Position numbers and translations under genes: made by a program. Below are positions 14,132 through 53,082 of a stretch of DNA of 64,000 bases, one piece after another. This DNA comes from Frigoribacterium sp. JB110 (lineage in GTDB: Bacteria > Actinomycetota > Actinomycetes > Actinomycetales > Microbacteriaceae). The first letter of the stretch is position 1, and each line of letters begins with the position of its first letter. Below the pieces are notes generated by a model. The model saw only the letters and a list, made by a program, of their open reading frames with translations, made no database searches and was not told the origin of the DNA. Where the stretch lies: positions 124,001-188,000 of the forward strand of contig NZ_FUIA01000011.1 in the NCBI RefSeq assembly GCF_900163665.1, given 5' to 3'.

Positions 14132-14133
14132 AC

Positions 14134-14177: not shown

Positions 14178-14284
14178 CTCGCCCCGAGTCCGCGCGGTGG
14201 ACGAGGCGGGGTACCTCCATCTGATGGCTGTTGCGCCGTCACGGATGCGGGGCAGGTCGTCTCGCGCAGACACAGGAGGAACGG

Positions 14285-17338: not shown

Positions 17339-17354
17339 CAGCTCGACCGAAGTT

Positions 17355-17386
17355 GGCGGGTGGGTGGCGAAAGCCGTCCGCCCGCC
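17355..17386 (+). terminator. Hairpin terminator after the surface protein
   Basis: Fourteen-base arms GGCGGGTGGGTGGC and GCCGTCCGCCCGCC pair (two G-U) across a GAAA loop, 17 bases after the stop codon. A strong stem, though without a clear U-run. Confidence 0.6.
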
Positions 17387-17939
17387 TTCGCGCATCACTA
17401 ACCGACGAATCTCAAACATCGCTACCATCCGCGGCTGAGGGAGCGGCTGTCTTCCGGGCATGTCCATCATCGAAGCGAGGGCGCGCGCTACGCCGGTCCT
17501 CTTCTGGATCGGTGCCGCCGTCGCGATCGGTCTGGACGATCGCGCTGCCGGTCACGCCGACACGGCGTGCGCGGTGATCCATCCGCCTTCAGCAGGCTGC
17601 GCCGGCGATGCGCGCCCACCACCAGCAATCATATGGACCATCTTGGTGCAGGCGGCAGTCGGGGCCTCCCGCCCGCTAAGTCGGCGAGCCGGTGGGGCGC
17701 GCCCCGACAGAGCAGTCATCGTTGCGGCGACTCCGCACATCTTTGCGGACAGCCAGCGACATCGTGAGCACATCCATGTCACACAACGCCTCGTAAGTGG
17801 CGCGCGAACAGGTTCGGCCCTCCTACCCGGTCGTCCGCATCTTGTGAGGCCCCGCACAGCGAGCACGCTTGTTGGTCCAGATAGAACCCGGAGGGGATGC
17901 GTATTGACGGAACTCTCAGCATTCACCTATGTTTGTATT
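17387..17939. other. About 550 bases without a convincing gene
   Basis: Short frames exist on both strands (for example one starting MSIIEARARATPVLFWIGAAV at 17461), but none has a domain, a good ribosome binding site or consistent codon use. This may be decayed DNA at the right edge of the mobilisable module. It ends at the zinc-box promoter. Confidence 0.45.
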
Positions 17940-17954
17940 TGATAACGCTTCTCA
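17940..17954. promoter_or_regulatory. Zur-type box (site 1)
   Basis: TGATAACGCTTCTCA, followed by ATAAGG. Including flanks it nearly matches the box upstream of the L36 gene read on the opposite strand (TGATAACGTTTCTCAATA). It lies upstream of the secreted protein and the giant anchored protein. Confidence 0.75.
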
Positions 17955-17992
17955 ATAAGGATTGAATCCTTCTACCTTGGCAGGGCGCGAAC

Positions 17993-18262
17993 ATGGCGAA
18001 CCGCACCAGCAGCACCACGGTGCCGCAGAGTGCGTCCACGTCAAGACTCTGCACAGTCTGCCGAGTCGCCGACAAACGCCGACACTCGCCTACGGAGGAT
18101 CACCTCTGCGCCACGGGCATCGCATGCTCCTGCGGGTGCCACGATCAAGAGTCGGAGCGCCTCATCATCGGGGAGCGGACGTGGGTTCGCGTATTACTGG
18201 CCTCTCGGTTCCTGGCTGCCATCCTCCGAGAACGCGGCCCGCCTGCGGAAGCCTCCGCCTGA
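17993..18262 (+). CDS. Possible small Cys/His-rich protein
   Basis: An 89-codon ATG frame (MANRTSSTTVPQSASTSRLC...) with high GC at third positions. It carries CTVC at 20-23 and a cluster HLCATGIACSCGCHDQ at 37-52 (Cys39, 45, 47, 49, His37, His50), a possible zinc site. The ribosome binding site is weak (GGCAGGG). It starts 39 bases after the Zur-type box, so it would be the first gene of that transcript. No family is recognised, and the C-terminal third looks non-specific; the region could instead be a long leader. Confidence 0.4.
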   Translation: MANRTSSTTVPQSASTSRLCTVCRVADKRRHSPTEDHLCATGIACSCGCHDQESERLIIGERTWVRVLLASRFLAAILRERGPPAEASA

Positions 18263-18348
18263 CACCTCACCGGGCTGACAGCCCGATTCATGTGCACGAC
18301 AGATCGTTGCACTGGCAAATCACACTTCAATCCTCAATTAGGAGCATC

Positions 18349-18963
18349 ATGTCCCATCACACCCTTGACTCTCCCGTCAAGCAGCCCTCACCCAAGGTCG
18401 GTAATTTCGTCCGCCGCGCCGCGCTCACCGTCGGCGCGCTTTTCGCGTCAGCTGCTCTCGCGATCGGCGGGGCTTCGGCCGCACAAGCAGCGACGATCAA
18501 CATCACAAATGGCCACAATGACATCCTGAAGATCGAGACAATCAGCGGAAGTAACGTACCTGGATCAGAACGATCAGATGGTTCGTTCCATAGCTGGCCG
18601 CTGGCCGACGATTACGTCTACCAGTTCAGCACGGCGAATGCCGGCGTCAGTTGCTCGGGCGGGGTGTACACGATCAGCAACGTCAACTCGAGCACTTCCC
18701 CTGATGTCGGCTTCGACAATTCCACTGGCACCAACTACAGCGTTGCGTTGGTGACCACAGGGGGCACGGTCTCGTTCGCCAGCACGTCATTCAGCATCGC
18801 CTCGGGCGGCCTTGAAACGTTGCCGAGCAACACCCATGTCCACGGCACGTGGACTCTGACGGCTGACGATGGGGACTGCGGCGGCGACTCGTTCGGGCTC
18901 AACTTCCTGATCCCAGGCGCAGGAAGCGCAGGCACTCAGGCGTTCACCTTCACGATCAGCTAA
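18349..18963 (+). CDS. Secreted single-domain TIGR03769-like protein, putative soluble zinc binder
   Basis: A 204-residue exported protein: ATG 18349 with TAGGAG upstream, signal peptide about residues 25-48 (ending AQAA). The mature chain is one surface-anchored-type domain, with NGHND (His near 55) at the start and HVHGTW (near 162) near the end, the same pair of motifs as in the large anchored proteins. Cysteines in VSCSGG and DCGGD may form a disulfide. It has no LPXTG motif, membrane anchor or basic tail, so it should be released. It lies downstream of Zur site 1 and upstream of the 1505-residue protein, separated by a strong hairpin. A zincophore-like scavenger is inferred. Confidence 0.75.
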   Translation: MSHHTLDSPVKQPSPKVGNFVRRAALTVGALFASAALAIGGASAAQAATINITNGHNDILKIETISGSNVPGSERSDGSFHSWPLADDYVYQFSTANAGVSCSGGVYTISNVNSSTSPDVGFDNSTGTNYSVALVTTGGTVSFASTSFSIASGGLETLPSNTHVHGTWTLTADDGDCGGDSFGLNFLIPGAGSAGTQAFTFTIS

Positions 18964-18975
18964 ACGACCATCTCC

Positions 18976-19016
18976 GCATCGTGTGGGGTCACCAGACGGG
19001 TAACCCCACACGATGC
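18976..19016 (+). terminator. Perfect 14-bp hairpin between secreted and anchored protein genes
   Basis: Arms GCATCGTGTGGGGT and ACCCCACACGATGC, loop 13 bases. It lies 13 bases after the stop and 26 before the next ATG, so it may act as a partial terminator that makes the secreted protein more abundant than the anchored one. Confidence 0.65.
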
Positions 19017-19041
19017 TTCATGTCTCAATCGATGAGGAAGC

Positions 19042-22000
19042 ATGACCAAGAATGACACGATAGCCCGCACAACACCCGGTACGAACCGTCGGAGTTGGAA
19101 AGCCCTTCGAATCGGAGCTGGCTTCCTTGCGGCCGTGCTCGCGAGCAGCCTGATCGCACCTTCAGCATTCGCTGCGACACCAGAGGAGTCCAATCAGGTC
19201 TATCTGGTCGCCGGGGTCAGCATGCTCGACGGCAAGTGGTGGGCCAACCCTGTTCCGGCGCCGGTCTTGGGCCTCAACGACGTGCAGCTCCGAGTGCCCA
19301 CAGCCGCAACACGGAACGTACCCGAAGCCGAAGAGTTCTCATGGCTCGGGGCAAGCGGCGAGATCCGCTGGAACACGTCGGGCAACGGCTACTCATCCCA
19401 GCCTGACGAAGCGCTGTTCGTCATAGACACAGATCCGTCCTTTGGTGACACCACGCTCGATCCGGGAGACCCCGCGATCAAGTTCACGCTCTCGAACGTC
19501 GTCGCGCCCGGAACCTTCATGCTCTACGACGTGCCTGCCCGCGCCGAAGGCGAACCCGGTCCCGAAGCGCCGGGGGACCTCTTCCGCTGGGGCACCGGCC
19601 AGCAGCGCGATGGCACACCGCAAGAGATCGACACCACCTTTGAGCTGCCCAAACAACAGACACCGACTGAGGCAGCGTTCGGCGCTTCGGGCATGTATTG
19701 CTTCGATATGACGGCTGCCGCATCTCTTGCCGACGGAACGGACGTATCCGACACCAGCACCGTTCGCATCGCGGTCGGCGACCAGGTTCCTGCCGACGCC
19801 GAATGCGGCATGGCCACAGGAGAAGTACCGGAGCTACCCACGGCAAAGATCATCCCGGACGCCCCTTCGACACCGGTTGCGACAGCAGAGAACGGCACGG
19901 TGACAGTGAGCTGGGAGGCCCCTGGCGACGACGGCGGCGACCCGATCACCGGATACACCGTCACGCTTCGCGACCCCAACCGTGAGACCTTCACTGCCGA
20001 AGTCGATGGAAATACCCTCACCGCCGTGTTCGAGGAAGTTCCTGCCGGGAACTACCGGGCAAGTGTCGTCGCGACGAACGCGAATGGCGGCTCCGAGGCC
20101 TCCAGCTGGTCCGCGGGCGTCACAGTGGGCGAACCGGTCCGAGTGGTCGATGACGGGCACATCGATGCGATCGGAACGCAGGTCGACACCGACGAGGCGA
20201 CAGGCGATCTGTCGCTCGCACTGCGCGCCCACCACGATGACTTCGGCTGGTTGGAATGGGACGATTTCGTGCTGTACTCCGACGACAAAGCACAGATCAC
20301 ACTGCCCGAAGAGTTCACGAGTGACAACGACTGGTCCTTCCTCACGAATGAGCCCGGCACCACTGTGTGGGAGTCTCCGATCGGTCAGGAGCAGGGACTG
20401 CCCTGGGTCGGGCTGAGCACCGAGCACGAGAGCATGCGCGAACACGCGACCGGTCTGGTCGGAATCCGGATCGAAGGCGTCACCGGTGCAGACGGTCGTG
20501 ACGCTCCCGGCGAATTCGCCCTGACCAGGTCTCCCCAGGTCACGGTCAATGGCGCTGCCCTCCTCGCCAGCACTCGGGAGGCGCTCCCGAACGGGTTCAT
20601 GGCCCAGGTCGGACAGCACAGCCACTTTGGCTGGTACTTCACTCGGCCGGGAGTGTACTGCGTCGCCATCGCCGTCGACACCGTGCTCGACGACGGATCA
20701 CGGCACACCGACCGTGGCCTGCTGACCCATGTGATCGGCAGCCAAATCGACCCCGCCGACGTGACCCCGTGCGGCGCATCCACCGACTACCCCGAAATCT
20801 CCATGCCCGACAGCGTGCCAGCGGAGGGAGATACCCCGTACGTCTTCGACCAGGGCTTCGGCAACCTCTCGCTGAACTCTGACACTGGTGGCCTGACCAC
20901 AACCCTGCTCCAAAACTCGAGTTATCGCAATGAGACCCCGGAGAGCCACGGACTTGAAGACGTGATCTTCCGGGGGGCGCAGATCGAGAGAAATGGCCGA
21001 CAATATCACGACGGAAACTACATCGTCGGGGCGACCTCCTACTGGGACTCGGCTCGAGACGAGGTACCGATTCTAAGGTGGAACACTTTCGGACTGCCCC
21101 AGCAGGATTTCGACGGGGATGTCACCTGGAGCATCGCCCATTTCGCGGGACCAGGGGACCTCTCCGTCGACCTGTCTGGACAAGGAGTGATCTTCGACAC
21201 GAGTGCCGACATCACCGAAACAATGCTGTGGACACAGAGCGGTCTGCAAGATACGCAATGGGAGGTCACCGCACCCGGCAGGTACTGCGTCGACATGAGC
21301 TGGACAGTGCAGTCGAAGAAACACGGGGAAATGACACATGATCAGAGCATCACGATCGTGGCCGTTGACGACGGTTTCGAGCATGAAGCGGGCATCTTGA
21401 CACAAACGTGCGCTGATGGTGCGGATGCGACCGAACCTGGTGATAGCGACAGCGAACCGGAGCCCGATCCTGGTGACAACGAGGAGCCGTGGGATGTGCC
21501 GAACTGGTCGGAGACCGAGTCGGGCACGAAGATCCTGAATCGCGGACACGTCGATGTCGCCTCCCTCGTAGAGGACGGCAAGCTCGACACGACGATCAAG
21601 GACACGACAACAGAGGGCGCCGAAGCAGGCCGCGAGAACGGTTGGGTGTCGTGGCACGAGCCTGAGGATGTCGTATTTCAGTTGCTTCCCACAGCGGAGC
21701 GCCAGATACCCGCTCGAGAGGCATACGGGTTCCTCGGTGAGCCGGGGCAGCAGTTCTGGCTGGCTCCCGAAACGCAAGATCCCTCGATTCTGTGGCCGGG
21801 ATGGTCGACCGAGCACATCCCGGTCGGCACCCTCGAGGATGGCGTGGATTGGAGACTGACCGGGATGGACGGCCCGGGCGAGTTCTTCATCTACACCACG
21901 GACCCGGAGAGCATGACCGGCGAGCAGCTCGTGTGGTTCAACACCGCCGACGGTATCGACGAGAAGGATGTCTTACCGATCGGTGCTCGGAACCATGTAC

Positions 22001-23559
22001 ACGGGAACTGGGCGTTCACCGCCGAGGGCGTGTACTGCATCGCGTTCGAACGCACCGCGAACCTCGCGGACGGCACCGCAGTGTCCGATCCGTTCACCCT
22101 CGCAATCGCTGTCGGCAAAGTTGACCCGACCGTTGTAGACCCGGCGAACTGCGAGGCGAGCGAGCCGGTGGCCACGGTGCCGGACGCGCCCGCGAAGCCC
22201 GATGCCAGCGCCGCTGGCGATGCGGTGACCGTGTCCTGGACGGCGCCCGTCAATGGAGGCTCTGCGATCACGGGATACACGGTGCAGTTACTGGGTGGCG
22301 AGCGGCCGCTCGTGAAGGAGGCTCTGGCCGATGCGACGAAGATCGAGTTCGAGGGCGTGCCCGCGGGCACGTACACGGCAACCGTGGTCGCGGTGAATGA
22401 GATCGGCACGTCACCTGCCTCGATAGCCTCGGATGCGGTCACGGTGACGGACACCACGGTTCCTGATGCGACCGCGCCCAATGCCCCAGCAGCGCCCACT
22501 GCGACCGTCGATGGCACCGCGGTGACGATCGAATGGGCCGCTCCTGAAGATGGTGGCGCTCCGATCACGGGATATCGGGTTGAGCTGACCGGTGGTGACG
22601 TGCCCGTGGTGCGTGAGGTTGTCGCGGAGGCGACGTCGGTCGGGTTCGGGAACCTCTCCCCTGGCACCTACACGGCGACTCTGGTCGCGATCAACCAAGT
22701 GGGTGAGTCTGAGAAGTCGGCCTCGTCGAACAGGGTTCGCGTGGCCTCGGTGCCGGATCCGCGTCCAGAAGCGACAGCGCCGGAGACCCCGGCAACGCCA
22801 ATTGCGACCGTGGATGGGTCGACCGTGACCGTGTCGTGGATGGCACCTGCTGATGGGGGTTCTCCGATCACCGGATACACGGTCGCCCTGACCGGCACGA
22901 CGGGCGCCCCGATCGTGCAGGAGCTCGGCGCCGAGACGACGACGGCGACATTCGCGCGGGCTCCTGCCGGGACGTACACCGCGACGGTCATGGCGGTGAA
23001 TGCGAAGGGCACCTCGCAGGCGTCACCAACGTCGAACGAGGTGACCGTGCAGCGGTCTGGCAGCAGCGGGCCGGGAGAGGAGCCTGACGATCAAGTGTCG
23101 CCGGTGCCGGACTCGGAGTTGACGGATGTAACCCGTGGCGGGGTGGAGGTGCCCGAGGCCGCGAGCCGTGGTTCGCTGATCACTGTCCGGGTTGGTGCCA
23201 CGTATGCGGGTGAGCAGGTGCGGGTGTGGTTGCACTCGAACCCGGTGCTGCTCGGCACCGTCACGCTCGACGCGGGAGGCAACACCAGGGTCACGATCCC
23301 GGCGGATGCTGCGCTGGGCGATCACAAGATCGCGGTGCAGGATCTCAACGGGTCGCTGATCGGGTGGGACAACCTCAAGATCGGCATCGCATCGCAGGTG
23401 GGGCCGAATGGCGAGTGGCTTGCCACGACTGGCGTTGACGGGGACCTGGTGTTCCCTCTGACTGCTGGGGCCGTGATCCTGCTACTGATGGGAGCTGTGG
23501 CCCTTGTCGGTACGGCCAAGCGCCGCCGAGAGGTCGTCGCCGGTTCGATCCGACGCTGA
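19042..23559 (+). CDS. Giant wall-anchored choice-of-anchor M / surface-anchored repeat protein with FN3 domains
   Basis: A 1505-residue protein. Signal peptide about 25-45. There are four surface-anchored-type domains: domain 1 (~50-255, motifs lost), domain 2 (~370-570, GHID near 372 and HSHFGW near 526), domain 3 (~590-790, degenerate) and domain 4 (~833-1030, GHVD near 835 and HVHGNW near 983). One fibronectin III unit lies between domains 1 and 2 (~275-365) and three near-identical ones at ~1035-1335 (each with PITGYTV or PITGYRV). A C-terminal unit (GEQVRVWLHSNPVLLG ... LIGWDNLKI) is shared with two other island proteins. It ends LATTG, membrane helix, KRRREV. Presumably displayed on the wall and zinc-regulated through site 1. 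Confidence 0.88.
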   Translation: MTKNDTIARTTPGTNRRSWKALRIGAGFLAAVLASSLIAPSAFAATPEESNQVYLVAGVSMLDGKWWANPVPAPVLGLNDVQLRVPTAATRNVPEAEEFSWLGASGEIRWNTSGNGYSSQPDEALFVIDTDPSFGDTTLDPGDPAIKFTLSNVVAPGTFMLYDVPARAEGEPGPEAPGDLFRWGTGQQRDGTPQEIDTTFELPKQQTPTEAAFGASGMYCFDMTAAASLADGTDVSDTSTVRIAVGDQVPADAECGMATGEVPELPTAKIIPDAPSTPVATAENGTVTVSWEAPGDDGGDPITGYTVTLRDPNRETFTAEVDGNTLTAVFEEVPAGNYRASVVATNANGGSEASSWSAGVTVGEPVRVVDDGHIDAIGTQVDTDEATGDLSLALRAHHDDFGWLEWDDFVLYSDDKAQITLPEEFTSDNDWSFLTNEPGTTVWESPIGQEQGLPWVGLSTEHESMREHATGLVGIRIEGVTGADGRDAPGEFALTRSPQVTVNGAALLASTREALPNGFMAQVGQHSHFGWYFTRPGVYCVAIAVDTVLDDGSRHTDRGLLTHVIGSQIDPADVTPCGASTDYPEISMPDSVPAEGDTPYVFDQGFGNLSLNSDTGGLTTTLLQNSSYRNETPESHGLEDVIFRGAQIERNGRQYHDGNYIVGATSYWDSARDEVPILRWNTFGLPQQDFDGDVTWSIAHFAGPGDLSVDLSGQGVIFDTSADITETMLWTQSGLQDTQWEVTAPGRYCVDMSWTVQSKKHGEMTHDQSITIVAVDDGFEHEAGILTQTCADGADATEPGDSDSEPEPDPGDNEEPWDVPNWSETESGTKILNRGHVDVASLVEDGKLDTTIKDTTTEGAEAGRENGWVSWHEPEDVVFQLLPTAERQIPAREAYGFLGEPGQQFWLAPETQDPSILWPGWSTEHIPVGTLEDGVDWRLTGMDGPGEFFIYTTDPESMTGEQLVWFNTADGIDEKDVLPIGARNHVHGNWAFTAEGVYCIAFERTANLADGTAVSDPFTLAIAVGKVDPTVVDPANCEASEPVATVPDAPAKPDASAAGDAVTVSWTAPVNGGSAITGYTVQLLGGERPLVKEALADATKIEFEGVPAGTYTATVVAVNEIGTSPASIASDAVTVTDTTVPDATAPNAPAAPTATVDGTAVTIEWAAPEDGGAPITGYRVELTGGDVPVVREVVAEATSVGFGNLSPGTYTATLVAINQVGESEKSASSNRVRVASVPDPRPEATAPETPATPIATVDGSTVTVSWMAPADGGSPITGYTVALTGTTGAPIVQELGAETTTATFARAPAGTYTATVMAVNAKGTSQASPTSNEVTVQRSGSSGPGEEPDDQVSPVPDSELTDVTRGGVEVPEAASRGSLITVRVGATYAGEQVRVWLHSNPVLLGTVTLDAGGNTRVTIPADAALGDHKIAVQDLNGSLIGWDNLKIGIASQVGPNGEWLATTGVDGDLVFPLTAGAVILLLMGAVALVGTAKRRREVVAGSIRR

Positions 23560-23766
23560 GTACCGTCGAAGGCCCGGGGTGAGCGCGGCGTATTGGAGAC
23601 GTCGGCGCTCCCTCGGGTCTTCGGCACGGCGATTCCCCCGGTGGTGCTGTAGATCTCGGTGCTGAGTGTCACACCGTGATCGCGGGTTGGTCACCGACAC
23701 AGCAGATGATCCGTCCAGCGTGCCCGCCGCTTGCACGCATCGGGAGAGTGGCGATGATCTCGTGGT

Positions 23767-25292: not shown

Positions 25293-25413
25293 CGTTCGAG
25301 TCTAGATTCCGGCGCTCACGCGGACATCGGTCCTGGGTCTGAGAGACCTGGGACCGAGCACGACGCTGCCATGGTCCGATGACGATGCGGAGAGGACCTG
25401 TTGGCATGGAGGG

Positions 25414-26918: not shown

Positions 26919-26925
26919 GATCACC

Positions 26926-34280: not shown

Positions 34281-34297
34281 TTGAGAATCATTCTCAA
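34281..34297. promoter_or_regulatory. Zur-type box (site 2), perfect palindrome
   Basis: TTGAGAATCATTCTCAA is fully symmetric about its central C. It lies between the FAD oxidoreductase (minus) and the small gene/methyltransferase pair (plus), so it can control both directions. Confidence 0.85.
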
Positions 34298-35569: not shown

Positions 35570-35584
35570 TGAGAAACGTTATCA
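35570..35584. promoter_or_regulatory. Zur-type box (site 3)
   Basis: TGAGAAACGTTATCA, between the L36 gene (minus) and the CobW-family gene (plus), overlapping both expected promoters. Confidence 0.82.
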
Positions 35585-35629
35585 TTAGACTGTAGGTGTC
35601 GGAGTGGTGTCTCAGAGATGGAGGTTCGT

Positions 35630-36667
35630 GTGGAGCAGGTCGACGTGCTGGCGGTGATCGGCACCTGTGCCCCTGAACGGCGGCGCTACGCGAAGCGGCT
35701 CGCCGCGATGACTCGGCGGACCTTCGTGCCCGCCCGCCGGCTCGCGCTTGCCCCGGATCCGATCGATGAGGCGTTGGCGGTTGCACCGTGGTCAGACGCT
35801 CCCGCGGGGGCGGTGATCGAGTTCCCCGAATACACCGAAGTGACCGAGCTGATCGGCACGCTCGCCGCCCCGGACGCTCCCACCCGACTGACGGGTGTCG
35901 TGTGTCTGGTCGACGCGGCGCATCTGCGGGACGATCTTCACCAGGACAGCTACACACGCCACCCGGCGCCTCCGGGCGAGCACCCCTCAATGGGCCGGCA
36001 TGCCGCGCACGCACTGCTCGCCGTGAACCAGATCGAGTATGCCTCGGTGATCGTCCTGGTGAACTGGGCGACGCTGCCCACCGTGGATCTGTCGACGGTG
36101 ATGGCGCTGGTCAGCCACCTGAGCCCCCGAGCCCGGCTGCGCCTGCATCGGAACGCAATCGATCGGTGGGAGTGCGACACCGTATACACAGTCGGGCAGG
36201 AGCGCCCGGGCTGGGTCGGGATGTTGAACGGCGACTACGACCCCCACATGACCGACCTCCGCGTCAGCGCTTTTCACTACGAGAACGTGCGCCCGCTGCA
36301 TCCCGGCCGTCTCAAGCATCTGCTGGACGAGAGGATCGAAGCGGGCGAGTTCGGCGCGGTGATCCGCTCTGCCGGGTTCTGCCGGTTCGCCACCCGCCCG
36401 CAGATCATCGCTCGGTGGGATCACGTCGGCCAGGTGATCTCCTTCGATTCGCTCGGACGCGACGACGACCTTGGCGATGAGGACGATCTGCTCGCGCTGG
36501 GCCAGGATCTGGCGTTCATCGGAATCGATCTCGACACTGACGCGCTCAAGAAGGCGTTGGATGCGGCCGCGCTCACCGACACTGAGCTCGCCGCCGGCGC
36601 CCGGGCGTGGGTGCGATTCCCCGACCCGTTCCCCTCCTGGCCGGTCGTAGCGGATCGGACGGAGTGA
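35630..36667 (+). CDS. CobW-family (COG0523-like) protein with degenerate GTPase motifs
   Basis: About 345 residues. The start is taken at GTG 35630 because GGAGG sits 5 bases before it; an ATG 12 bases upstream has no site. The fold order of COG0523 zinc metallochaperones is visible: first strand DVLAVIGTC, EFPEYTEV in the switch region, CLVDAAHL, VLVNWATL, then a CobW_C domain (RVSAFHYENVRPLHPGRLKH) and FATRPQIIARWDHVG. The P-loop GxxxxGK(S/T) is replaced by GTCAPERRRY, NKxD by NWAT, and the CxCC metal motif is absent. It is probably not a GTPase. Zinc control through site 3. Confidence 0.8.
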   Translation: MEQVDVLAVIGTCAPERRRYAKRLAAMTRRTFVPARRLALAPDPIDEALAVAPWSDAPAGAVIEFPEYTEVTELIGTLAAPDAPTRLTGVVCLVDAAHLRDDLHQDSYTRHPAPPGEHPSMGRHAAHALLAVNQIEYASVIVLVNWATLPTVDLSTVMALVSHLSPRARLRLHRNAIDRWECDTVYTVGQERPGWVGMLNGDYDPHMTDLRVSAFHYENVRPLHPGRLKHLLDERIEAGEFGAVIRSAGFCRFATRPQIIARWDHVGQVISFDSLGRDDDLGDEDDLLALGQDLAFIGIDLDTDALKKALDAAALTDTELAAGARAWVRFPDPFPSWPVVADRTE

Positions 36668-40936: not shown

Positions 40937-41335
40937 ATGAACGCCGCGATCCGTGAACGCCGTCAGACCGTCCAGAAGGAAGCCGTGCGCCAAGCCCTTG
41001 AGGAGGCAACCGGCTTCATCTCCGCCACTCAGCTGCACCAGCGCATCAATACCGAAGGCACTCCCATCGGGCTGGCGACCGTGTATCGGCAATTGAATGC
41101 GCTGGCCGAGTCGGGGCACGCCGACACAATCCCCGTGCCCAGCGGACAACTGTTCCGAGCCTGCGAGCCTGGTGCGCATCACCACCACCTGGTCTGCGAG
41201 GAATGCGGAACGGCTGTGGAGATCGAACCATCCGACGAGGAGTGGATCCGCGACACCGCCGCACGTCACGGATTCACCGTGACCCGCCACATCCTCGAGG
41301 TCTTTGGACGTTGCGCGGACTGCGCTGCTGCGTAG
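40937..41335 (+). CDS. zur: Fur-family regulator, probable zinc uptake regulator Zur
   Basis: A 132-residue Fur-family repressor (MNAAIRERRQTVQKEAVRQA). DNA-binding helix region GLATVYRQLNALAESGHADT; metal region HHHHLVCEECG (His cluster and CxxC) and a second pair GRCADC near the C-terminus, together the structural zinc site. The dimer-domain segment EVFGRCADC and short length fit Zur rather than Fur or PerR. The surrounding set of zinc-starvation genes with a shared palindrome supports Zur. Zur with zinc would repress the island; loss of zinc would release it. Confidence 0.88.
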   Translation: MNAAIRERRQTVQKEAVRQALEEATGFISATQLHQRINTEGTPIGLATVYRQLNALAESGHADTIPVPSGQLFRACEPGAHHHHLVCEECGTAVEIEPSDEEWIRDTAARHGFTVTRHILEVFGRCADCAAA

Positions 41336-42623: not shown

Positions 42624-45600
42624 TCATGACGAACCGGTCGTGTCGACGGGCGCTGCTTGTGTCCGAAGCCGACGTACGTACCACAGGGTGACGCCGATGA
42701 TTCCTGCGATGATCAGCACACCTCCGCCCACGATGCCTCCCACGACGGCGGGATTCACGTCCTCGCCGAAGATCGCGTCGAGCACGCCGTTGTCTTCGTC
42801 CTCGCCCTCCGTGTGTTTAGTCCTCAGCGTCTGATTCTGCTTCTGCTTTTCCTTCTCCTCAGCCTCTGCGGCAGCGGCCTGCGCTGCGGCGTCGGCCTGG
42901 GCTGCGGCGACGGCGTCGGCCGTCGACTGGTGCACGGCCGCGTTGACGGCGGCCGCCGTGCTGGCATCCGCGGACCGCAGGCCGCAGAAGGCATCGCCGA
43001 GCGGCACGTCGCCGACCTGGAACACGTACGTGTGCGCCGCCGTGCGGATGGATGAGCCCGTCTTCGGGTTGGTTGCCACGGCGTGCACGGTCAGCTTGTA
43101 GACGCCTTTTTGCGAGAACACCCACTGTGCGTGCGTGTGCGCAGGTTCGGCTTCTCGGATGGTGCCGGGGAAGCTGTATCCGCCATGGGTGAGGAGCGGT
43201 CTGAAGTCACCGAACGATCCCTGCGTGTACATGTACGCGCGCCCGGGGCCGTTGACGCCGGTGATGTTGATCGACACGTCGGTGTATCCGCTTCCGGCCG
43301 TGCTGAATGTCTCCCAGCCGGGCCAGATGAGGGCGGGATCCTGGGTCAGCGGGAGCACGTATCCCGATGGCGCCCCGGGCGTCCCGCCGGGGATGTTGCC
43401 GCGATAGGCGGATTCCTTGACCTTGAGTAGGACGGTCTCGGCTTCGCGGATCACCCGGTGGCCGGTGACGTCCTCGAGAAGTTGCAGGACGGCCTTGCCG
43501 TTGGCGGCGGACACGTAGAACGCGTCGATGTGCCCGTGGTCGAGTGTGACGCCCGGGGCGCATTGCTGGCCCGGTGCTTTGGGCGGCGGCTTGCTGCCGC
43601 CCCCGCCCGGAGTGCTCCCACCGCTGCCGGGGTTGCTGCTTCCACCCCCGGGGTTGCTCCCCCCGCCTCCGGGGTTGCCGCCTCCACCGGGGTTGCCGCC
43701 GCTGTCGGGGGCGACGACGGTGAAGTTGTCCCAGCCGATCAGTTCGTCATCGACGCTCTTGAGGACGAGCCGATGCGTGCCGGGGGCGATCTGTTGGGGG
43801 ACGTCGATCGAGAATGCGCCTTTGAGGTCGGCTTGCACCCACCCGAGCCAGACCGGCTTTGGGTCATGGCTCCACGCCGAGACCCATTCTCCGAAGTGCG
43901 GCTCGTCCACTGCCACGGCGAGGGAGCCGTCGGGTGCGGGCGCGACCTCCTTCTTGGCGTTGGTGACCTTCACGCTCGTCGCGGGCTTCACCCCGGCCAG
44001 TTCCGTATCGTCGACGGGGATGGTGTCGTCGTGCTCCGGTTTGGGCGTGTCCTCGCCGGCGACGGTGAGGGTGACAGGTGTGGACTGCGAGGCAGTGACG
44101 TCGTCCTTCCAGGTGGGGATGAACTCGGCAACGATCCTGTGCCCGCCGGGGGTGAGAGAATCGGTCCGGAATTCTGCTTTCCCGTCTTTCACGGGGGTGT
44201 GCCCGAGAATCGAGTTGCTCTTCTCGTCTCGGAACTGCACGGCGCCGACAGCATCTGCGGGGCTGACCTCGCTGGTCAGCAGGATCGCCTCGCCGGCGTC
44301 GAGGTCCTTCGTCGAGCTGCGCAGCGTGACCGAGGAGGACTGCGTGTGCGCATCGAGATCCCCGACGACGAAGACGTAGTCGTTCGTCGCCGTCTGCTGA
44401 CGGCCATCGACCTTCCCGGTCATCGAGAAGGTCAGCGTGTAGGTGCCGGCCTTGGTGAACACCCAGTTCATGTGGGTGTGCTGGGGAACACCGAGGGTCC
44501 AGGGCGTCAGCTGGTCCTTGGAACTGAACACCCGGGATGGCCCGTTCTGGAACACTTCGACGTCGCCGGGGCCGGTGACCGTGTCGAGCGTCACGGTAAG
44601 GCGTGCGTTAGGGTCGACGGCGGCGCGCAGGCTGGGATCTTCCGTGCTGAAGCCGGGCCAGATGATGTCGTGGTCCTGCGTCTGCGGCGCCATCCAAATG
44701 GTGCTCCCCGGTGCGCCGAGGAACTCATATCCTGGCCCACCGGGAAATGTCTGCTTCGCCTTGTCGTTGACGTGGAAGAGCAGACGCCGGGTCTCGAGGC
44801 GGCTGCCGAGATCGATCTGACCGTCTCCGTCGACGTCCATGTCCGCCTTGGACTGCAGCACGAGGGTGCCGTTGTCGACATATGCGGAGACCGCGTCGGT
44901 GTGGACGGCGCCGACGATGGTCTTCTCCTGGCTCGGCGGCGCAGGTTGGTCGGACTGGCCCTCGGGTTCGGGGATGTCCTCCGCGTCATCTTTGACATCG
45001 GCGTCTCCCAGCGCGGGGGTGTCCTGCTCCCCCGCGCCGTCGGCGTCGGGGGTGACCTCGGCCTCGGCTCCGGCTTCTGGATCGGTATTCGTCTGCGGTT
45101 CCGGCTCGGGGGCCGGTGCTGGCGCGTGTGGGAGCGGGTCGGTGACTCGGAACAGCATCGTGGTCGGCGCGCTCTCGCCCACGACCGTCCCCTCGGTATC
45201 GACCAGCGTTGCCGTGGCCGTCAGAGAGTAGTCGCCCGGTGCCGTGAAATACCACGATGTAGGAGTGGTGGCGCCCGCATCGAGTGGCGCGTGCTCAGGC
45301 GCGTCCGTCGCCGTGCCCAACAACCACGCGCTGCCGTCCTCCGAGGTGACCACGGCCTGCGGCGTCGTCGAGCCCGAGTTGTCGGCGGCTACTCCGCCCG
45401 GGAGGACGATCTCGCTCCACCGGAGCTGCACGGTGCCCGCGGTGGCATCCATGGCGGAGGTGTCCAAGTGGGCGGTGAACCGTGCCGTGCCGTCGACGGT
45501 GATCATCGTGTCTGAGAGCACCGGTTGCCCGTTGGTATCGGCAATGCCCAGTTCGAGCGATCCGTCGGCGCCAGGGGCGATCTGGGCGAGGGTCGCGCCG

Positions 45601-45725
45601 GCAGCGGGCAGTTCTGCTGCGGCGCTGGCGCTCAGCGGAGTCAGCGCGGTCAGTGCCAGTGCGAGCAATGCGGCTACGCCGGTCGCCCGGGTGCGGTGTC
45701 GTGGGGCCGGATGCAGGATGGTCAT
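42624..45725 (-). CDS. Anchored repeat-type ABC transporter-associated surface protein (TIGR03773-like)
   Basis: 1033 residues. Signal peptide ~15-35. Domain 1 (~40-200) is degenerate. An acidic/Pro linker follows. Domain 2 (~270-470) carries IIWPGFSTE and HTHMNW (~416). Then come an Ig-like unit with GEAILLTSEV, the shared unit GEWVSAWSHDPKPVWLG ... LIGWDNF, and a Gly/Pro/Ser linker. Domain 3 (~727-930) carries GHID (~730) and HTHAQW (~862). The end has an Ala-rich coiled segment, a membrane helix (GGGVLIIAGIIGVTLWYV) and a short basic tail. No LPXTG, so it is membrane- rather than wall-anchored. ATG overlaps the permease stop. Thought to pass metal to the binding protein. Confidence 0.88.
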   Translation of the reverse strand: MTILHPAPRHRTRATGVAALLALALTALTPLSASAAAELPAAGATLAQIAPGADGSLELGIADTNGQPVLSDTMITVDGTARFTAHLDTSAMDATAGTVQLRWSEIVLPGGVAADNSGSTTPQAVVTSEDGSAWLLGTATDAPEHAPLDAGATTPTSWYFTAPGDYSLTATATLVDTEGTVVGESAPTTMLFRVTDPLPHAPAPAPEPEPQTNTDPEAGAEAEVTPDADGAGEQDTPALGDADVKDDAEDIPEPEGQSDQPAPPSQEKTIVGAVHTDAVSAYVDNGTLVLQSKADMDVDGDGQIDLGSRLETRRLLFHVNDKAKQTFPGGPGYEFLGAPGSTIWMAPQTQDHDIIWPGFSTEDPSLRAAVDPNARLTVTLDTVTGPGDVEVFQNGPSRVFSSKDQLTPWTLGVPQHTHMNWVFTKAGTYTLTFSMTGKVDGRQQTATNDYVFVVGDLDAHTQSSSVTLRSSTKDLDAGEAILLTSEVSPADAVGAVQFRDEKSNSILGHTPVKDGKAEFRTDSLTPGGHRIVAEFIPTWKDDVTASQSTPVTLTVAGEDTPKPEHDDTIPVDDTELAGVKPATSVKVTNAKKEVAPAPDGSLAVAVDEPHFGEWVSAWSHDPKPVWLGWVQADLKGAFSIDVPQQIAPGTHRLVLKSVDDELIGWDNFTVVAPDSGGNPGGGGNPGGGGSNPGGGSSNPGSGGSTPGGGGSKPPPKAPGQQCAPGVTLDHGHIDAFYVSAANGKAVLQLLEDVTGHRVIREAETVLLKVKESAYRGNIPGGTPGAPSGYVLPLTQDPALIWPGWETFSTAGSGYTDVSINITGVNGPGRAYMYTQGSFGDFRPLLTHGGYSFPGTIREAEPAHTHAQWVFSQKGVYKLTVHAVATNPKTGSSIRTAAHTYVFQVGDVPLGDAFCGLRSADASTAAAVNAAVHQSTADAVAAAQADAAAQAAAAEAEEKEKQKQNQTLRTKHTEGEDEDNGVLDAIFGEDVNPAVVGGIVGGGVLIIAGIIGVTLWYVRRLRTQAAPVDTTGSS

Positions 45726-46678
45726 CGGAGAACACTCTCTTCAACGTGCGGTGCAGAGGAATCTGCGGCCTCCCGGCGGGGTCCCGGTGTCGGCGACGGT
45801 GAGGCGGTCTCGACCGGTTGTGCGCGGCGGCGGAGGTAGTTCATCAGCAGTCCGTGCCGGGGTGCGAAGAACCAGGCGAGAAGGAAGACGGCTGTGGCGA
45901 TGAGCACGATCATGCCGCCGACGGGGAGATCGAAGCTCCACGAGACGTAGAGGCCGACGAGGGCGGAGGACCCGCCGATGATCGGGGCGAGGAGCATCAT
46001 CAGCCCGAGCCGGTCGGTGAGCAGCCGTGCCGCTGCGGCCGGGGTGATCAGCAGAGCCAGGACGAGGATGTTGCCGATGGTCTGGATGGAGATGACGATC
46101 GCGATCGCGACCATGACGTAGAGCACGAGGTCCAGGACGAAGACGGGGATGCCGGTGGAGCGTGCCATCTCGCGGTCGAGGGTGACCGCGACGAACTCCT
46201 TGTGGAACAGGAAAACCGTCAGCAGCAGGAGGATGCCGGTGATCGCGACGGTGTAGATGTCCTCGTCGGGGATGCCGGTGATGGAGCCGAAGAGGAACTG
46301 CTGCAGAGAGCCGGCGTATCCGGGTGCCTGGGAGATGACGACGATGCCGAGAGCGAAGGCGGCGACGAAGAAGACCCCGATGATGGAGTCCTCCTTGATG
46401 CGCCGGTTCTGAGAGAACACGGCGACGAGGATCGCCGTCAGGACGCCGGCGACGGCGCCGCCGAGGACCAGGTTGCCCTGGATGACGAAGGCGACGGCGA
46501 GCCCGGGGAAGACGGCATGGGCGACGGCGTCGCCGATGAACGCCATACCGCGCAGCACCACGTAGCATCCGATCACTCCGCAGACGATGCTGGACATCAC
46601 GGCGATGATCAGTGCCTTGGGAAGGAAGCCCAGGTCGGGGTTGAGCAGGTCCTGGATGAAGTCAATGGGAGAGAGCAT
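45722..46678 (-). CDS. Anchored repeat-type ABC transporter permease (ZnuB-like, TIGR03770)
   Basis: A 318-residue metal-type ABC permease with about eight helices (MLSPIDFIQDLLNPDLGFLP). Hallmarks of the ZnuB/MntB group: CYVVLRGMAFIGDAVAHAVFPG near residue 40, and NILVLALLITPAAAARLLTD near residue 225. The start is fixed by a one-base overlap with the ATPase stop (TGATG). The C-terminal tail after residue 290 is Pro/Ser/Glu-rich and cytoplasmic. It moves the metal delivered by the binding protein at 48395-49981. Confidence 0.93.
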   Translation of the reverse strand: MLSPIDFIQDLLNPDLGFLPKALIIAVMSSIVCGVIGCYVVLRGMAFIGDAVAHAVFPGLAVAFVIQGNLVLGGAVAGVLTAILVAVFSQNRRIKEDSIIGVFFVAAFALGIVVISQAPGYAGSLQQFLFGSITGIPDEDIYTVAITGILLLLTVFLFHKEFVAVTLDREMARSTGIPVFVLDLVLYVMVAIAIVISIQTIGNILVLALLITPAAAARLLTDRLGLMMLLAPIIGGSSALVGLYVSWSFDLPVGGMIVLIATAVFLLAWFFAPRHGLLMNYLRRRAQPVETASPSPTPGPRREAADSSAPHVEESVLR

Positions 46679-47424
46679 CAGGCCGACACCCCCAGGGTCT
46701 TCAGCAGCGGGTTGGTGGCTTTCACGTCGAAGGCGCGCATCCAGATCTCGGGGTCGTTGAGGGTCGACGCTGTGCCGTCGGCGATGATGGTGCGGTTGAT
46801 CAGGCACAGGCGGGAGCATTCGTGCAGGGCGCCGACCAGGTCGTGGGTCGTCATCAGCACGGCCTTGTCCTCGGCGGCGAGGTCTCGGAAGAGCTCGATG
46901 AGCAGCTCCTGGGTGGGCATGTCGAGACCGGTGAACGGCTCGTCCAGCAGCAGCAGCCGTGGACGCAGCGCGAGTGCGCGGGCGACGAGGACGCGTTGGC
47001 GCTGTCCGCCGGAGAGCTCGCCGACCGGCCGCGCTCTGAGGTGGTCCATGTGGACACGTTCGAGGGCCTCGGCCACGGCGTCGAAGTCCGCTACCCCGGG
47101 CCGGCGCAGCCATCCGATCCGCCGGATCCGGCCGGTCATCACGGCATCCTCGACGCTGATGGGGAAGTCCCAGGCGAACTCGTGACGCTGCGGTACGTAG
47201 CCGATCCTGGAGCGCGCCTGTGCGCCGGTGCTGCCATCGACGTCGACGCGGCCGTTCTCGGTGCGGATCAAGCCGAGGATAGAGCGCAGCAGAGTGGTCT
47301 TGCCTGCCCCGTTCGGTCCGATCAGACCGACGAACTCACCGGTCTCGACGCTCAGGTCGATGTCGTGCAGGACGCGCCTGCCGCCCAGGTGGACGGTCAG
47401 GTCGGTGACGTCGAGGGCACTCAT
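46678..47424 (-). CDS. Anchored repeat-type ABC transporter ATP-binding protein (ZnuC-like, TIGR03771)
   Basis: A 248-residue ATPase (MSALDVTDLTVHLGGRRVLH): Walker A GPNGAGKTTLL near residue 36, Q-loop YVPQRHEF, signature LSGGQRQRVLVARAL, Walker B LLLLDEPFTGLD, H-loop LMTTHDLV. It has the sequence features of metal importers (ZnuC/MntA). ATGA overlap with the preceding anchored protein and one-base overlap with the permease fix its place in the operon. Confidence 0.94.
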   Translation of the reverse strand: MSALDVTDLTVHLGGRRVLHDIDLSVETGEFVGLIGPNGAGKTTLLRSILGLIRTENGRVDVDGSTGAQARSRIGYVPQRHEFAWDFPISVEDAVMTGRIRRIGWLRRPGVADFDAVAEALERVHMDHLRARPVGELSGGQRQRVLVARALALRPRLLLLDEPFTGLDMPTQELLIELFRDLAAEDKAVLMTTHDLVGALHECSRLCLINRTIIADGTASTLNDPEIWMRAFDVKATNPLLKTLGVSA

Positions 47425-48398
47425 TCGGTCGGTTCCTTCACATTTCGGGCGGCGAGGGCGCGGGCCTTCGCCCGACGAGATGCGGTGACGACCACGATGA
47501 TCGCCATCACGAGCACGACAGCGACCACTCCGACCACACCCCAGATGAGAGTGGCGAACGTGCCGTCGCCGTCCTGATCGCCGTCTGCGGCCGGACCGGC
47601 GGTGTCATCGGACGAATCCGGGGCGGCGGTCTCTGCGATGACGGACTGGTCGAACTCCATGCCGAATGCCTCCTCGGCATCCGTGGCGTCGCCGACGGCG
47701 AAGCGCAGGGTGTCGCGTGCGGAGACGGACTCGCCGATGTTCAGCTCCGCATCGAACTGGAGTTCGACGAGGTAGATCCCCGGTTCGCTGAAGACCCAGT
47801 TGGCGTGGGTGTGCTGGTTCACCTCGATCCACGACTGCTGCGGGAAGGGCTCCAATGACGACCACAGCGGTTGCGGGTCGCCGAAGTTCCCGCTCTGCAG
47901 GTAGACCACGACATCGCCCGGTCCTTCCATCCCCAGGACGCTGAGGGTCGTCCCCAGGTTCAGTGACTCGATCACGTTCGGTTCCTGGGTGTTCCACCCC
48001 GCCCAGACGACGTCGGGATTCTGGGTCTGCGGCACCACCCACACCTCGGTGCCGGGTTCCTGTCCGAGGAAGCGGTACGCCTCTGCGTCGGGGATGGGGA
48101 GGATGGCCGCGTCGGCGACCTTGAGGACCACGTCGTCGAGATGGCGCCAATAGGAGGGTCGTGCGGTGTCGTCGTGGATCTGGACGATCCACTCCCCCGT
48201 GCTCAGCGTGGGGCCGAAGTCCACGTGCCCCTGGTCGAGCACGACCTGTCCTGTCCCCTGCGTCTGGTTCGGGTCGATCGTCTGATCGAGATCGTCGTCG
48301 CCTTCTGCCGAGGCGGCCACGGGCGCGAGCACGGCGAGTCCGGCCAGGATGAGTGCGGAGGCCATGGTGAGCGGGCGGCGGATGCTGCGGGTGGTCAT
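47421..48398 (-). CDS. Membrane-anchored single-domain surface protein (TIGR03769-type)
   Basis: 325 residues: signal peptide 1-31, one complete surface-anchored domain and a C-terminal membrane helix (~277-300) with a basic tail, no LPXTG. In the domain: VVLDQGHVDF (His58, Asp60), LDDVVLKV, AYRFLGQEPGTEVWVVPQTQ, VVWAGWNTQE, GMEGPGDVVVYLQSGNFGD and HTHANWVFSEPGIYLV (His196, His198, Trp201). As the shortest complete copy in the operon, it is the best template for the domain. It lies between the binding protein and the ATPase, with ATGA overlaps on both sides. It probably sits at the membrane as the last relay step. Confidence 0.9.
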   Translation of the reverse strand: MTTRSIRRPLTMASALILAGLAVLAPVAASAEGDDDLDQTIDPNQTQGTGQVVLDQGHVDFGPTLSTGEWIVQIHDDTARPSYWRHLDDVVLKVADAAILPIPDAEAYRFLGQEPGTEVWVVPQTQNPDVVWAGWNTQEPNVIESLNLGTTLSVLGMEGPGDVVVYLQSGNFGDPQPLWSSLEPFPQQSWIEVNQHTHANWVFSEPGIYLVELQFDAELNIGESVSARDTLRFAVGDATDAEEAFGMEFDQSVIAETAAPDSSDDTAGPAADGDQDGDGTFATLIWGVVGVVAVVLVMAIIVVVTASRRAKARALAARNVKEPTE

Positions 48399-49981
48399 TG
48401 TTCTCCTTCGGGCGTGCCCAGGCAGTCGCGGATGGATCGTGCGTTGAAGCGCATCATGTCGATATAGGTGGTCACGGTCTCGCTGAAGGCATCGCCGTAG
48501 ATGGTGCAGACCTCGACCCCCTGGTCCTTCGCCACTTCGACGAGTGTGGAGGAGCGTGCGGCGAGGTTGGGTTCGAGGAACACGGCGGGGACGTGCAGGT
48601 TGCGGATGGTCTCGGTCAGACGTTTCCGCTCGGCCAGCGACGGCTCGACCGCGGGGTTCGGGGTGACGAAGCCGGAGATATCGAGGTCGTAGGCCTGCGC
48701 GAGGTAGCCGAACGCATCGTGCGTGGTCACGAGCGTGCGCTGCGATCGAGGGATCTCGGCGATCGTGTCGCGCACCTCGGTGTCCAGTGCGCTGAGCTCC
48801 TGGAGGTAGGCTGCGGCGTTCTTCGTGTAGTCGGCGGCGCCGGCCGGATCGACCTCGATGAGGGTGTCGCGGATGATCTCGGTGTAGGACATGGCGTTGC
48901 GGACGTTCTGCCACAGGTGCGGGTCAATCTCCCCGTGCACGTGCTTGCCGAGCACCGCCTGCGGAAGCTGGTAGATCGCCTCTCCTGCACGTCCCAGGAA
49001 CCGGTAGGCGGGATCACCGGGGATCTCGTGCAGGGCCTTGTTGGGCACCTCCACGACCACATCATCGAGGGGGAAGAATTCCTGGTGCACGTCTGCGGAG
49101 CCGTGCTCGTGATCCAGCAGGACCTCGAACCCTGCCTCGTCCAGGTCGAGCGTGATGTCGGAGTGGCCGCCGTTCAGCACTGTGGGATCGGATGTGCCCG
49201 GCACCGTGTACGGGTCGACGCCGACGGCGAAGGTGACCTTCCCGGTGGCGATGTCGAGGGGCTGCTGGTCCAGAGCGACCTGCAGTTTCGCCTGCAGGTC
49301 CAGTGTGTAGATTCCCGGCTGTGTGAACGCCCAGCTCAGGTGCGTGTGCGCGTCGGGGGGAAGGATCACCGTGTCGTCGCGGTACCCTCCGGCGGCGTCG
49401 AAGCCGTCGGAGGAGTCGAAGTAGACGTCGACGTCGCCGAAGCTTCCGGTGAGGTAGGCGATCAGATCTCCCGGCCCTTCCATGCCGGTGGCGGAGAGCA
49501 GGATGTCGGAGGAGCGGGTCGCGCCCAGCTCGGCACCGTCTCCTTTCACCCGCAGGCCGAGCCAGATCGTGTCCAGGGACACGTCCTCGACGAGGGGGAT
49601 GATCTCCGCGGCGTATTTGACGGCCTCCTCGGCCAGGGAGATGTTCGGGACCCCGTCGGGCAGGTTCGTGTCCAGCGCCTTGATGAGGTTCTGCTCCTCG
49701 AGCATCAGGTAGTTGGAGAAGGCCACATCGGCGTAGACGATATCGCGCACGTCGCGCAGCGACGGCTCGTAGCTGTGCGGGTCTCCGCCCTCCGGCACGA
49801 GCGAGATCACCTCTGCCCGATCCCCGGCGACGTGCTGTGCGAGGTCGGCGAGGATACCTGTCGTGGTCACGACGCGGACACGACCGTCGTCCGGTTCTGC
49901 CGGGGAGGCACTGGCGCATCCCGACGCGGCCATCGCCAGGACGATCGAGACGGCGATGCCGACGGTGCGAGGGGGCGACAC
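48395..49981 (-). CDS. ZnuA-like metal-binding lipoprotein with an inserted, circularly permuted surface domain (TIGR03772-like)
   Basis: 528 residues from GTG 49981 (AAGGA site). Lipobox SGC, Cys22. The ZnuA fold is split: residues ~35-135 (first ligand His69 in EGGDPHSYEP) and ~345-528 (His355 in EIDPHLWQ, His421 in TTHDAFGYLA, Asp497 in YGDAFSE). The ~200 residues between are a surface-anchored domain with its halves in reversed order: the rear half (WLGLRV, GMEGPGDLIAYLTGSFGD, HTHLSWAFTQPG at 212-224) comes before the front half (GGHSD at 272-275, LDDVVVEV, AYRFLGRAGEAIYQLPQ). It replaces the His-rich loop of ordinary ZnuA. Ligand: probably zinc. Confidence 0.92.
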   Translation of the reverse strand: MSPPRTVGIAVSIVLAMAASGCASASPAEPDDGRVRVVTTTGILADLAQHVAGDRAEVISLVPEGGDPHSYEPSLRDVRDIVYADVAFSNYLMLEEQNLIKALDTNLPDGVPNISLAEEAVKYAAEIIPLVEDVSLDTIWLGLRVKGDGAELGATRSSDILLSATGMEGPGDLIAYLTGSFGDVDVYFDSSDGFDAAGGYRDDTVILPPDAHTHLSWAFTQPGIYTLDLQAKLQVALDQQPLDIATGKVTFAVGVDPYTVPGTSDPTVLNGGHSDITLDLDEAGFEVLLDHEHGSADVHQEFFPLDDVVVEVPNKALHEIPGDPAYRFLGRAGEAIYQLPQAVLGKHVHGEIDPHLWQNVRNAMSYTEIIRDTLIEVDPAGAADYTKNAAAYLQELSALDTEVRDTIAEIPRSQRTLVTTHDAFGYLAQAYDLDISGFVTPNPAVEPSLAERKRLTETIRNLHVPAVFLEPNLAARSSTLVEVAKDQGVEVCTIYGDAFSETVTTYIDMMRFNARSIRDCLGTPEGEQ

Positions 49982-50023
49982 GTGTTCCTTTCCGGATGCC
50001 GAGGCATCGCATGCAGACAAGAG

Positions 50024-50059
50024 GGGGCGGTGACGGGGAAGCCCTCCCGTCACCGCCCC
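50024..50059 (-). terminator. Perfect 14-bp hairpin between surface protein and binding protein
   Basis: Arms GGGGCGGTGACGGG and CCCGTCACCGCCCC with an 8-base loop, 7 bases after the stop of the 988-residue protein. It probably terminates or attenuates, giving more surface protein than transporter. Confidence 0.7.
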
Positions 50060-50066
50060 GGGATCC

Positions 50067-53033: not shown

Positions 53034-53082
53034 ATGTATGGACCTTTCCAGTTCGGGTAGAGGCAAGCAGACATCCGCTTAT

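Follow-up and report, generated by a model that had tools for sequence, protein, structure and literature searches.

The locus considered here raises the question of why the gene for a small, secreted protein without an anchor stands directly before the gene for a giant, anchored surface protein in a region with the marks of zinc starvation. The window, a stretch of 64,000 nucleotides from Frigoribacterium sp. JB110 (contig NZ_FUIA01000011.1, positions 124,001 to 188,000), encodes on the + strand a 204-residue protein and, 78 bp further on, a 1505-residue protein with choice-of-anchor-M (M) domains of the HxD/HxH type (Table 1). A reading made earlier from the sequence alone had proposed that the two are a candidate zincophore and its receptor. 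The best explanation of the locus, held tentatively and at slightly less than an even chance, is a soluble and an anchored HxD/HxH protein under control of Zur that would together feed zinc to the anchored-repeat ATP-binding cassette (ABC) transporter. The observations behind the pairing are the gene order, an export signal without an anchor, the motif, a Zur-type operator box and the recurrence of the pair in other genomes.

The N-terminus of the 204-residue protein has a hydropathy maximum of 1.82 at residue 24, and scans for hydropathy and motifs revealed neither a sortase motif nor a second strongly hydrophobic stretch; secretion is predicted as very likely. The GHND and HVHGTW halves of the motif are separated by 109 residues, compared with 112 in the small protein of a same-family genome (G325) and 134-146 in nine other small proteins described below. 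The earlier description of the protein as one surface domain without an anchor was borne out for the signal and the missing anchor, whereas a single domain was supported by no family model, the domain assignment resting on profile-profile comparison, motif and synteny.

Kinship of the 204-residue protein with the HxD/HxH group was evaluated with hhalign. The score against the group of small anchorless proteins was 35.3, compared with maxima of 22.7 for 300 shuffles and 21.7 for 60 pieces of ten other proteins of the window (z ∼10). Leaving G325 out of the group gave 33.5 (shuffle maximum 23.4, decoy maximum 20.9), and comparison with the M-domain profile gave 25.7 (20.1 and 20.9). A run with different settings and without controls aligned 147-149 columns at probabilities of 89, 79 and 4%. 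Across an alignment of eight rows, namely the 204-residue protein, five relatives and two domains from the window, all fixed positions of GHxD (G, H, D) and of HxHxxW (H, H, W) were invariant. The protein is the most divergent of the small anchorless HxD/HxH proteins and, since the curated cut-off was not reached, appears to be a distant relative that is not filed as a member of NF038134. These comparisons suggest, with considerable confidence, that it is kin to the HxD/HxH group; the relationship to the domains of the giant itself appears weak by sequence and better by profile and synteny. No relative of solved structure was found by sequence. The protein used as query against 398 genomes of the family gave matches at E ≤ 0.01 in nine, one being the query itself; the two best of these weak matches, which included signal-peptide residues, fell on the small G060 and G325 proteins, and of the six others only that of G058 was opened, a region of an ABC permease as judged by eye. 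No close homologue was found in the 398 genomes or in a wider search of genome contigs, and a search of plasmids with the protein or its DNA gave no match.

The 1505-residue protein passed the curated cut-offs of choice_anch_M NF038134 (267.9 bits, E 5e-80, four stretches; cut-off 55 bits) and TIGR03773 (277.6 bits, E 2.2e-82; cut-off 190.3), and matched Pfam fn3 in four stretches. The C-terminus contains LATTG followed by a hydrophobic segment and KRRR. The giant had been described as anchored with four domains of the kind, which agrees with the four stretches and the LATTG motif, although GHxD...HxHxxW is present only in domains 2 and 4. All 11 choice_anch_M matches of the genome lie within the window. 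The NEAT domain was also considered as a domain common to both proteins and rejected: it was absent from the Pfam matches of either, and PF05031 had no match in the genome, though control genomes gave none either.

A search for Zur-type operators was prompted by nearby genes for a regulator of the Fur family and a GTPase of COG0523 type, and by the anchored-repeat ABC operon. An exact TGAnAAnnnTTnTCA site, TGATAACGCTTCTCA, was found directly past the -10 element of a promoter-like site pointing toward the 204-residue gene, and 300 shuffles of the 500 nt upstream yielded no site as good. The 3.75-Mb genome contains five exact copies, and none of the reversed control pattern; related genomes contain 0-8 copies each, with the pattern present in 43 of 58. 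Zur boxes control genes for Cys-less L36 and COG0523 proteins, and one exact box of the window lies between genes of these two kinds. Two exact boxes lie outside the window. One is flanked by a ZnuA-family gene (PF01297, E 2.4e-46) and a gene for an ABC ATPase, and the other is upstream of an ABC permease-ATPase gene. One-mismatch boxes were located at 40901 before the Fur-family gene, at 53083 before the ABC operon and at 55291/55297 before a gene of the major facilitator superfamily (MFS). The Fur-family protein at 40937 is a candidate for Zur itself. Taken with the operator, these results make zinc regulation of the pair, through predicted binding of Zur, very probable.

Possible leader open reading frames containing Cys lie between the box and the small gene both in the window (17993-18262) and in G325 (L057, 3073-3318, - strand), with the sequences HLCATGIACSCGC and HLASGGVPRCGC respectively. 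The two gave z 3.7 with none of 200 shuffles as good, for the best of 18 frame pairs. No family match was obtained for the frame of the window, the similarity of its leader DNA to that of G325 was within the shuffle range, and the leader RNA had no Rfam match; a conserved leader frame is doubtful.

The perfect 14-bp hairpin reported earlier between the two genes was present at 18976-19016, with 14 perfect pairs, three further pairs past one mismatch and a loop of 5 nt. The 91-nt stretch containing it had a fold z of -5.4, and none of 200 dinucleotide shuffles folded as well. A terminator scan found no site; the hairpin is probably a terminator or attenuator. Among eight loci tested in the same manner with 100 dinucleotide shuffles each (those of G611 and G563 left out), seven had a stable hairpin 3' of the small-gene stop (z -2.4 to -5.8), and Microbacteriaceae PS02333, for which 80 nt remained after the small gene, gave z 0.0. 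In Compostimonas suwonensis and both Cryobacterium species a second AT-rich, Zur-like palindrome (identified by eye, unscored) lies between hairpin and giant. The 78 nt of the window contain none, suggesting that transcription of the giant there needs read-through or a promoter that escaped notice. The layout fits, without proving, an excess of the soluble form.

Relatives of the small protein were collected from choice_anch_M matches, weak matches of the 204-residue query, a five-row profile of small proteins run against 396 genomes of the order, and a pattern search of wider genome contigs. The choice_anch_M family was found in 20 of the 398 same-family genomes and the small form was seen in five of these (G000, G060, G118, G173 and G325), the remainder being judged non-exhaustively from match tables and partial stretches. 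The five-row profile had matches in at least 64 of the 396 genomes, from which only G563 and G611, with near-full-length matches in short open frames, were opened; partial matches in open frames of less than 300 residues in G567 (266) and G707 (270) were left unopened. Ten loci were thus available: the window, G325, C. suwonensis, Cryobacterium frigoriphilum, Cryobacterium melibiosiphilum, Schumannella soli, G118, PS02333, G611 (family f6) and G563 (family f16). Counted once each were C. suwonensis and G060, S. soli and G173, and two scaffolds of C. melibiosiphilum with the same coordinates and protein. Excluded were G020, in which an open frame of 186-196 residues behind a one-mismatch box covers the domain's first half and no more, and G247, with 190 residues cut by the contig end. 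Since G563 has two tandem small genes, the ten loci encode 11 small proteins, all without a sortase motif or second strongly hydrophobic stretch. GHxD was present in 10 of the 11 and HxHxxW in all, counts that are partly due to selection since the motifs were required by the search pattern and filter. The NF038134 cut-off was passed by the small proteins of S. soli and PS02333 and one of G563, and missed by those of C. suwonensis, C. frigoriphilum, G611 and G325 (E ∼1e-8 to 1e-12). The tandem proteins of G563, which belongs to another family (L108, 9833-11103, + strand), of 215 and 202 residues, are both anchorless one-domain HxD/HxH proteins with an exact Zur-type box upstream.

A giant M-type protein adjoins the small gene at eight of the ten loci. 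It is directly downstream on the same strand in six (the window, G325, C. suwonensis, both Cryobacterium species and G611) and divergent in S. soli and G118. The giant of G325 is cut by the contig start and scored 27.6 bits with choice_anch_M. The contig of PS02333 stops 80 nt past the small gene, and that of G563 ends soon after the small genes, its visible 12 kb lacking a giant. Five loci (PS02333, both Cryobacterium species, G611 and G563) came from protein searches that took no account of neighbouring genes, and three of these had the giant. An L[AP]xTG motif near the end was found only in the giant of the window, the six other complete giants ending in a membrane segment and basic residues as judged by eye. 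All ten loci have a Zur-like box within 500 nt upstream of the small gene, exact at five, with one mismatch at four and two at one; of 300 mononucleotide shuffles none was as good at eight loci, two at G118 and three at C. melibiosiphilum. The order of exact box, small gene, GC-rich hairpin (z -5.25) and giant is repeated in G325, where the box precedes the start codon by 386-410 nt (two candidate starts), compared with 394 in the window.

Six of the eight pairs share a cluster with a substrate-binding gene of the TIGR03772 family, which passed the cut-off in each case; in G611 the order on one strand is substrate-binding protein, M protein, ATPase-like, permease-like (these two named by eye), small protein and giant. 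The pairs of the window and G325 do not share a cluster with the gene, and such separation is unusual. The permease, ATPase, substrate-binding protein and surface proteins of the window's operon all scored over cut-offs. The pair is detached from this operon as had been reported, although the separation of about 18 kb given earlier was measured, starting at the giant, as 19 kb to the 3' end of the operon and ∼29 kb to the promoter end. The TIGR03772 protein of the operon (48395-50053, - strand) carries an M domain in swapped order, profile positions 75-183 preceding 1-73.

The preferred explanation would operate as follows. Scarcity of zinc would cause Zur to leave the box at 17940, whereupon the 204-residue protein, a putative soluble, anchorless and divergent zinc-binding member of the choice-of-anchor-M-like HxD/HxH proteins, would be made and exported by Sec. 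The hairpin would end most transcripts past the small gene, yielding the soluble protein in excess over the giant. Zinc collected by the soluble protein extracellularly or within the wall would be passed to the HxD/HxH domains of the 1505-residue protein and from there reach the zinc-type ABC transporter (TIGR03770-03772). Binding of zinc by the 204-residue protein is probable, and hand-off to the giant is a possibility judged somewhat less than even. The HxD/HxH proteins ZnuE, ZnuF, ZnuG, CmrA and CmrA2 described from C. diphtheriae are zinc- or Zur-regulated, zinc-dependent thermal shifts are reported for ZnuE, ZnuF and ZnuG, and loss of ZnuE lowered growth in low zinc (PMC12445094, PMC6711530). 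The proposal of a zincophore and receptor thus gained from the signal without an anchor, the kinship with the giant, the Zur-type box in a zinc-starvation neighbourhood, the pairs in other species and a hairpin that is mostly kept, while zinc binding, release from the wall, greater abundance of the small protein and its reception by the giant stay predictions.

Several results weigh against this explanation. The 204-residue protein matched nothing in Pfam and nothing credibly in NCBIfam, NF038134 giving no match at E up to 10, and with HMMER and our own profiles its best score was 11.3 bits, exceeded by four of 5000 of its own shuffles. The controlled hhalign alignments span only 43, 41 and 16 columns with probabilities of 71, 59 and 16% for the small group, the group without G325 and the M-domain profile. 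AlphaFold2 models reached a predicted local distance difference test value of 38 twice, leaving fold and metal site unseen. The operator is 394 bp before the ATG. In G325 the small protein has GEYD in place of GHxD, the histidine of HxD being Glu, and the 766 visible residues of the giant contain neither GHxD nor HxHxxW. According to one report on C. diphtheriae, the zinc shifts survived His-to-Ala changes, binding could not be tied to the motif in vitro, ZnuF and ZnuG restrained growth of a transporter mutant, and wall-anchored members were also present in the supernatant in varying amounts (PMC12445094); an anchorless form is therefore not the sole soluble source. Finally, a genome of the same genus (G799; L127, G799:C10:1-15923 compared with 17675-43659 of the window) that is 98.6% identical across a 12.9-kb part of the zinc region retains the ABC operon and the box without either gene. 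It matches 17675-18093 at 93%, the identical operator included, and 18094-27881 is absent at that place. By frame length its seven choice_anch_M matches, one of which is spread across two contigs, agree with the remaining M proteins and include no 1505-residue frame, and the 204-residue query had no match in nine same-genus genomes including G799 (no positive control). The pair was either lost in G799 or gained in the window, and loss is favoured because the orphan operator remains. The module is therefore accessory.

A protein that stores or buffers zinc would show the same joint response to Zur: the small protein would bind zinc and either stay in the wall or keep it from competitors, with no hand-off. 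We regard this as somewhat less likely than the relay, yet it is the function proposed for ZnuF and ZnuG, for which surface sequestration or storage is suggested and which reduce growth in cells lacking the transporter (PMC12445094). The divergent genes of S. soli and G118, which are not co-transcribed, and the two small proteins of G563 with no giant in the stretch seen are also in accord with storage. A giant is nevertheless present beside the small gene at eight of ten loci, the other two being limited by contig ends, and the clustering of six of eight pairs with the transporter and recurrence of the soluble and anchored arrangement in different gene orders also argue against storage.

The small protein could instead dock on the giant, for example on the degenerate domains 1 and 3, and shape or cap it, metal being of minor importance. 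Weak or degenerate M domains do occur in giants of the window and elsewhere, and adjacency is typical of physical partners; the retention of GHxD in 10 of 11 and HxHxxW in 11 of 11 small proteins, even when partly a result of selection, suggests a role for metal and makes a purely structural partner improbable. Least probable is that an unrelated secreted orphan happens to lie in a zinc region and matches the motif by chance. Such an origin would account for the lack of any family match, the ambiguous HMMER result and the absence of close homologues from the 398 family genomes, other genome contigs, plasmids and nine same-genus genomes (the last with no positive control). It is opposed by the hhalign z of ∼10, by the identity of the two best weak matches with the small proteins of G060 and G325, though signal-peptide residues were included, and by the same order of box, small gene, hairpin and giant in G325.

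The coordinates of the features are collected in Table 1. Just upstream of the pair, 14285-17338 (+) encodes a 1017-residue surface protein with an LAQTG end identified by eye and a sub-threshold match to a thioester domain (E 0.07). A MobF/TrwC relaxase-helicase gene (10589-14242, -) is near the surface-protein genes, and this region may be part of a present or former mobile element. Downstream of the COG0523 GTPase gene, 36726-40141 (+) encodes two ABC permease-ATPase fusions with CydC/CydD-like scores below cut-offs, possibly a metallophore importer. The MFS transporter (54074-55288, -) behind overlapping one-mismatch boxes at 55291/55297 is a possible exporter of metal or metallophore.

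Table 1. Features of the zinc region, in window coordinates.
Feature	Positions	Strand	Basis or remark
Promoter-like site TTGACG-18-TATGTT	17904..17933	+	sole such site in 17300-19200, where shuffles predict 0.3
Zur-type operator TGATAACGCTTCTCA, directly past -10	17940..17954	.	one of 5 exact TGAnAAnnnTTnTCA sites in genome
Possible leader open reading frame, 89 residues, Cys-rich, doubtful	17993..18262	+	weak likeness to G325 leader frame
204-residue predicted secreted, anchorless HxD/HxH-type protein	18349..18963	+	open reading frame, motif, profile comparison
Predicted signal peptide, ∼residues 1-47, ASAAQA/A	18349..18489	+	cleavage after AQA read by eye
GHND, HxD half of motif (H56, D58)	18511..18522	+	
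HVHGTW, HxHxxW half of motif (H163, H165, W168)	18835..18852	+	
Strong intergenic hairpin without a U-run	18976..19016	+	fold analysis
1505-residue surface protein: 4 M domains, 4 fn3, LATTG anchor	19042..23559	+	family models, motif scan
M domain 1, degenerate (no HxD/HxH)	19273..19776	+	
M domain 2, intact GHID...HSHFGW	20146..20727	+	
M domain 3 (C-terminal part), degenerate	21061..21357	+	
M domain 4, intact GHVD...HVHGNW	21535..22113	+	
LATTG sortase motif of giant	23419..23433	+	motif scan
Second exact Zur-type box, Pyr_redox oxidoreductase gene (-) / methyltransferase group (+)	34282..34296	.	
Type B (Cys-less) ribosomal protein L36	35433..35555	-	NF002021 E 1.6e-22, over cut-off
Third exact Zur-type box, L36 (-) / COG0523-type GTPase (+)	35570..35584	.	
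COG0523/ZigA-like GTPase	35618..36667	+	NF038288 E 2.4e-30, under curated cut-off
Fur-family regulator, candidate Zur	40937..41335	+	PF01475 above cut-off; NCBIfam Fur/PerR/Zur models all below
Anchored-repeat zinc-type ABC operon: TIGR03770, 03771, 03772, 03773, M proteins	42624..53066	-	one-mismatch box 53083

Known Gram-positive routes of zinc import are ABC transporters, metallophores and ZIP-type proteins, and the purpose of wall-bound HxD/HxH proteins was left open by the authors of the work on C. diphtheriae (PMC12445094). The proteins described there resemble those of the window in the kind of domain, in control by Zur and in that several adjoin the anchored-repeat ABC transporter, the giant of the window being likewise multi-domain and LAxTG-anchored. 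They differ in that all those described have a C-terminal transmembrane region or sortase signal, an anchorless one-domain partner not being among them. No report of an anchorless HxD/HxH form was found in one open-access library, covered mostly as titles and openings of abstracts, which is limited evidence of novelty. Components of the anchored-repeat ABC system defined by TIGR03769-TIGR03773 (NCBIfam) are present in the operon at 42624-53066, whereas the 204-residue protein matches none of its models and the relatives elsewhere match weakly to moderately.

Likenesses also exist to secreted metal- and haem-acquisition proteins of other kinds. The binding domain of the NEAT haemophores IsdX1 and IsdX2 also occurs in anchored Isd proteins, the fungal zincophore gene PRA1 adjoins its transporter gene, and for the bacterial zinc-binding proteins YezP and TseZ we know of no anchored sister protein. 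IsdX1 and IsdX2 are, as described, secreted forms of a binding domain, and differ in that the ligand is haem and the domain unrelated (PMC2515342); the resemblance to a haemophore and receptor noted in the sequence-only reading is one of function by analogy and not of homology. Pra1 and Aspf2 are described as secreted, zinc-binding, induced by zinc limitation and delivering to a transporter, although eukaryotic and likened here by description rather than sequence (PMC3386192, PMC9780748). YezP and TseZ are bacterial and secreted for zinc uptake, although by type VI secretion in Gram-negative species (PMC4489752, PMC8602904). A soluble partner that recurs with its operator next to the giant, and in many cases within the transporter cluster, offers a handle on the purpose of wall-bound HxD/HxH proteins, and the pair predicts a relay of zinc from soluble to anchored protein that is testable with two genes in an environmental species. 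The pair could, although this is rather doubtful, be a Sec-exported protein zincophore and its dedicated anchored receptor, the first such case from Gram-positive bacteria and the zinc counterpart of the secreted and anchored NEAT proteins for haem.

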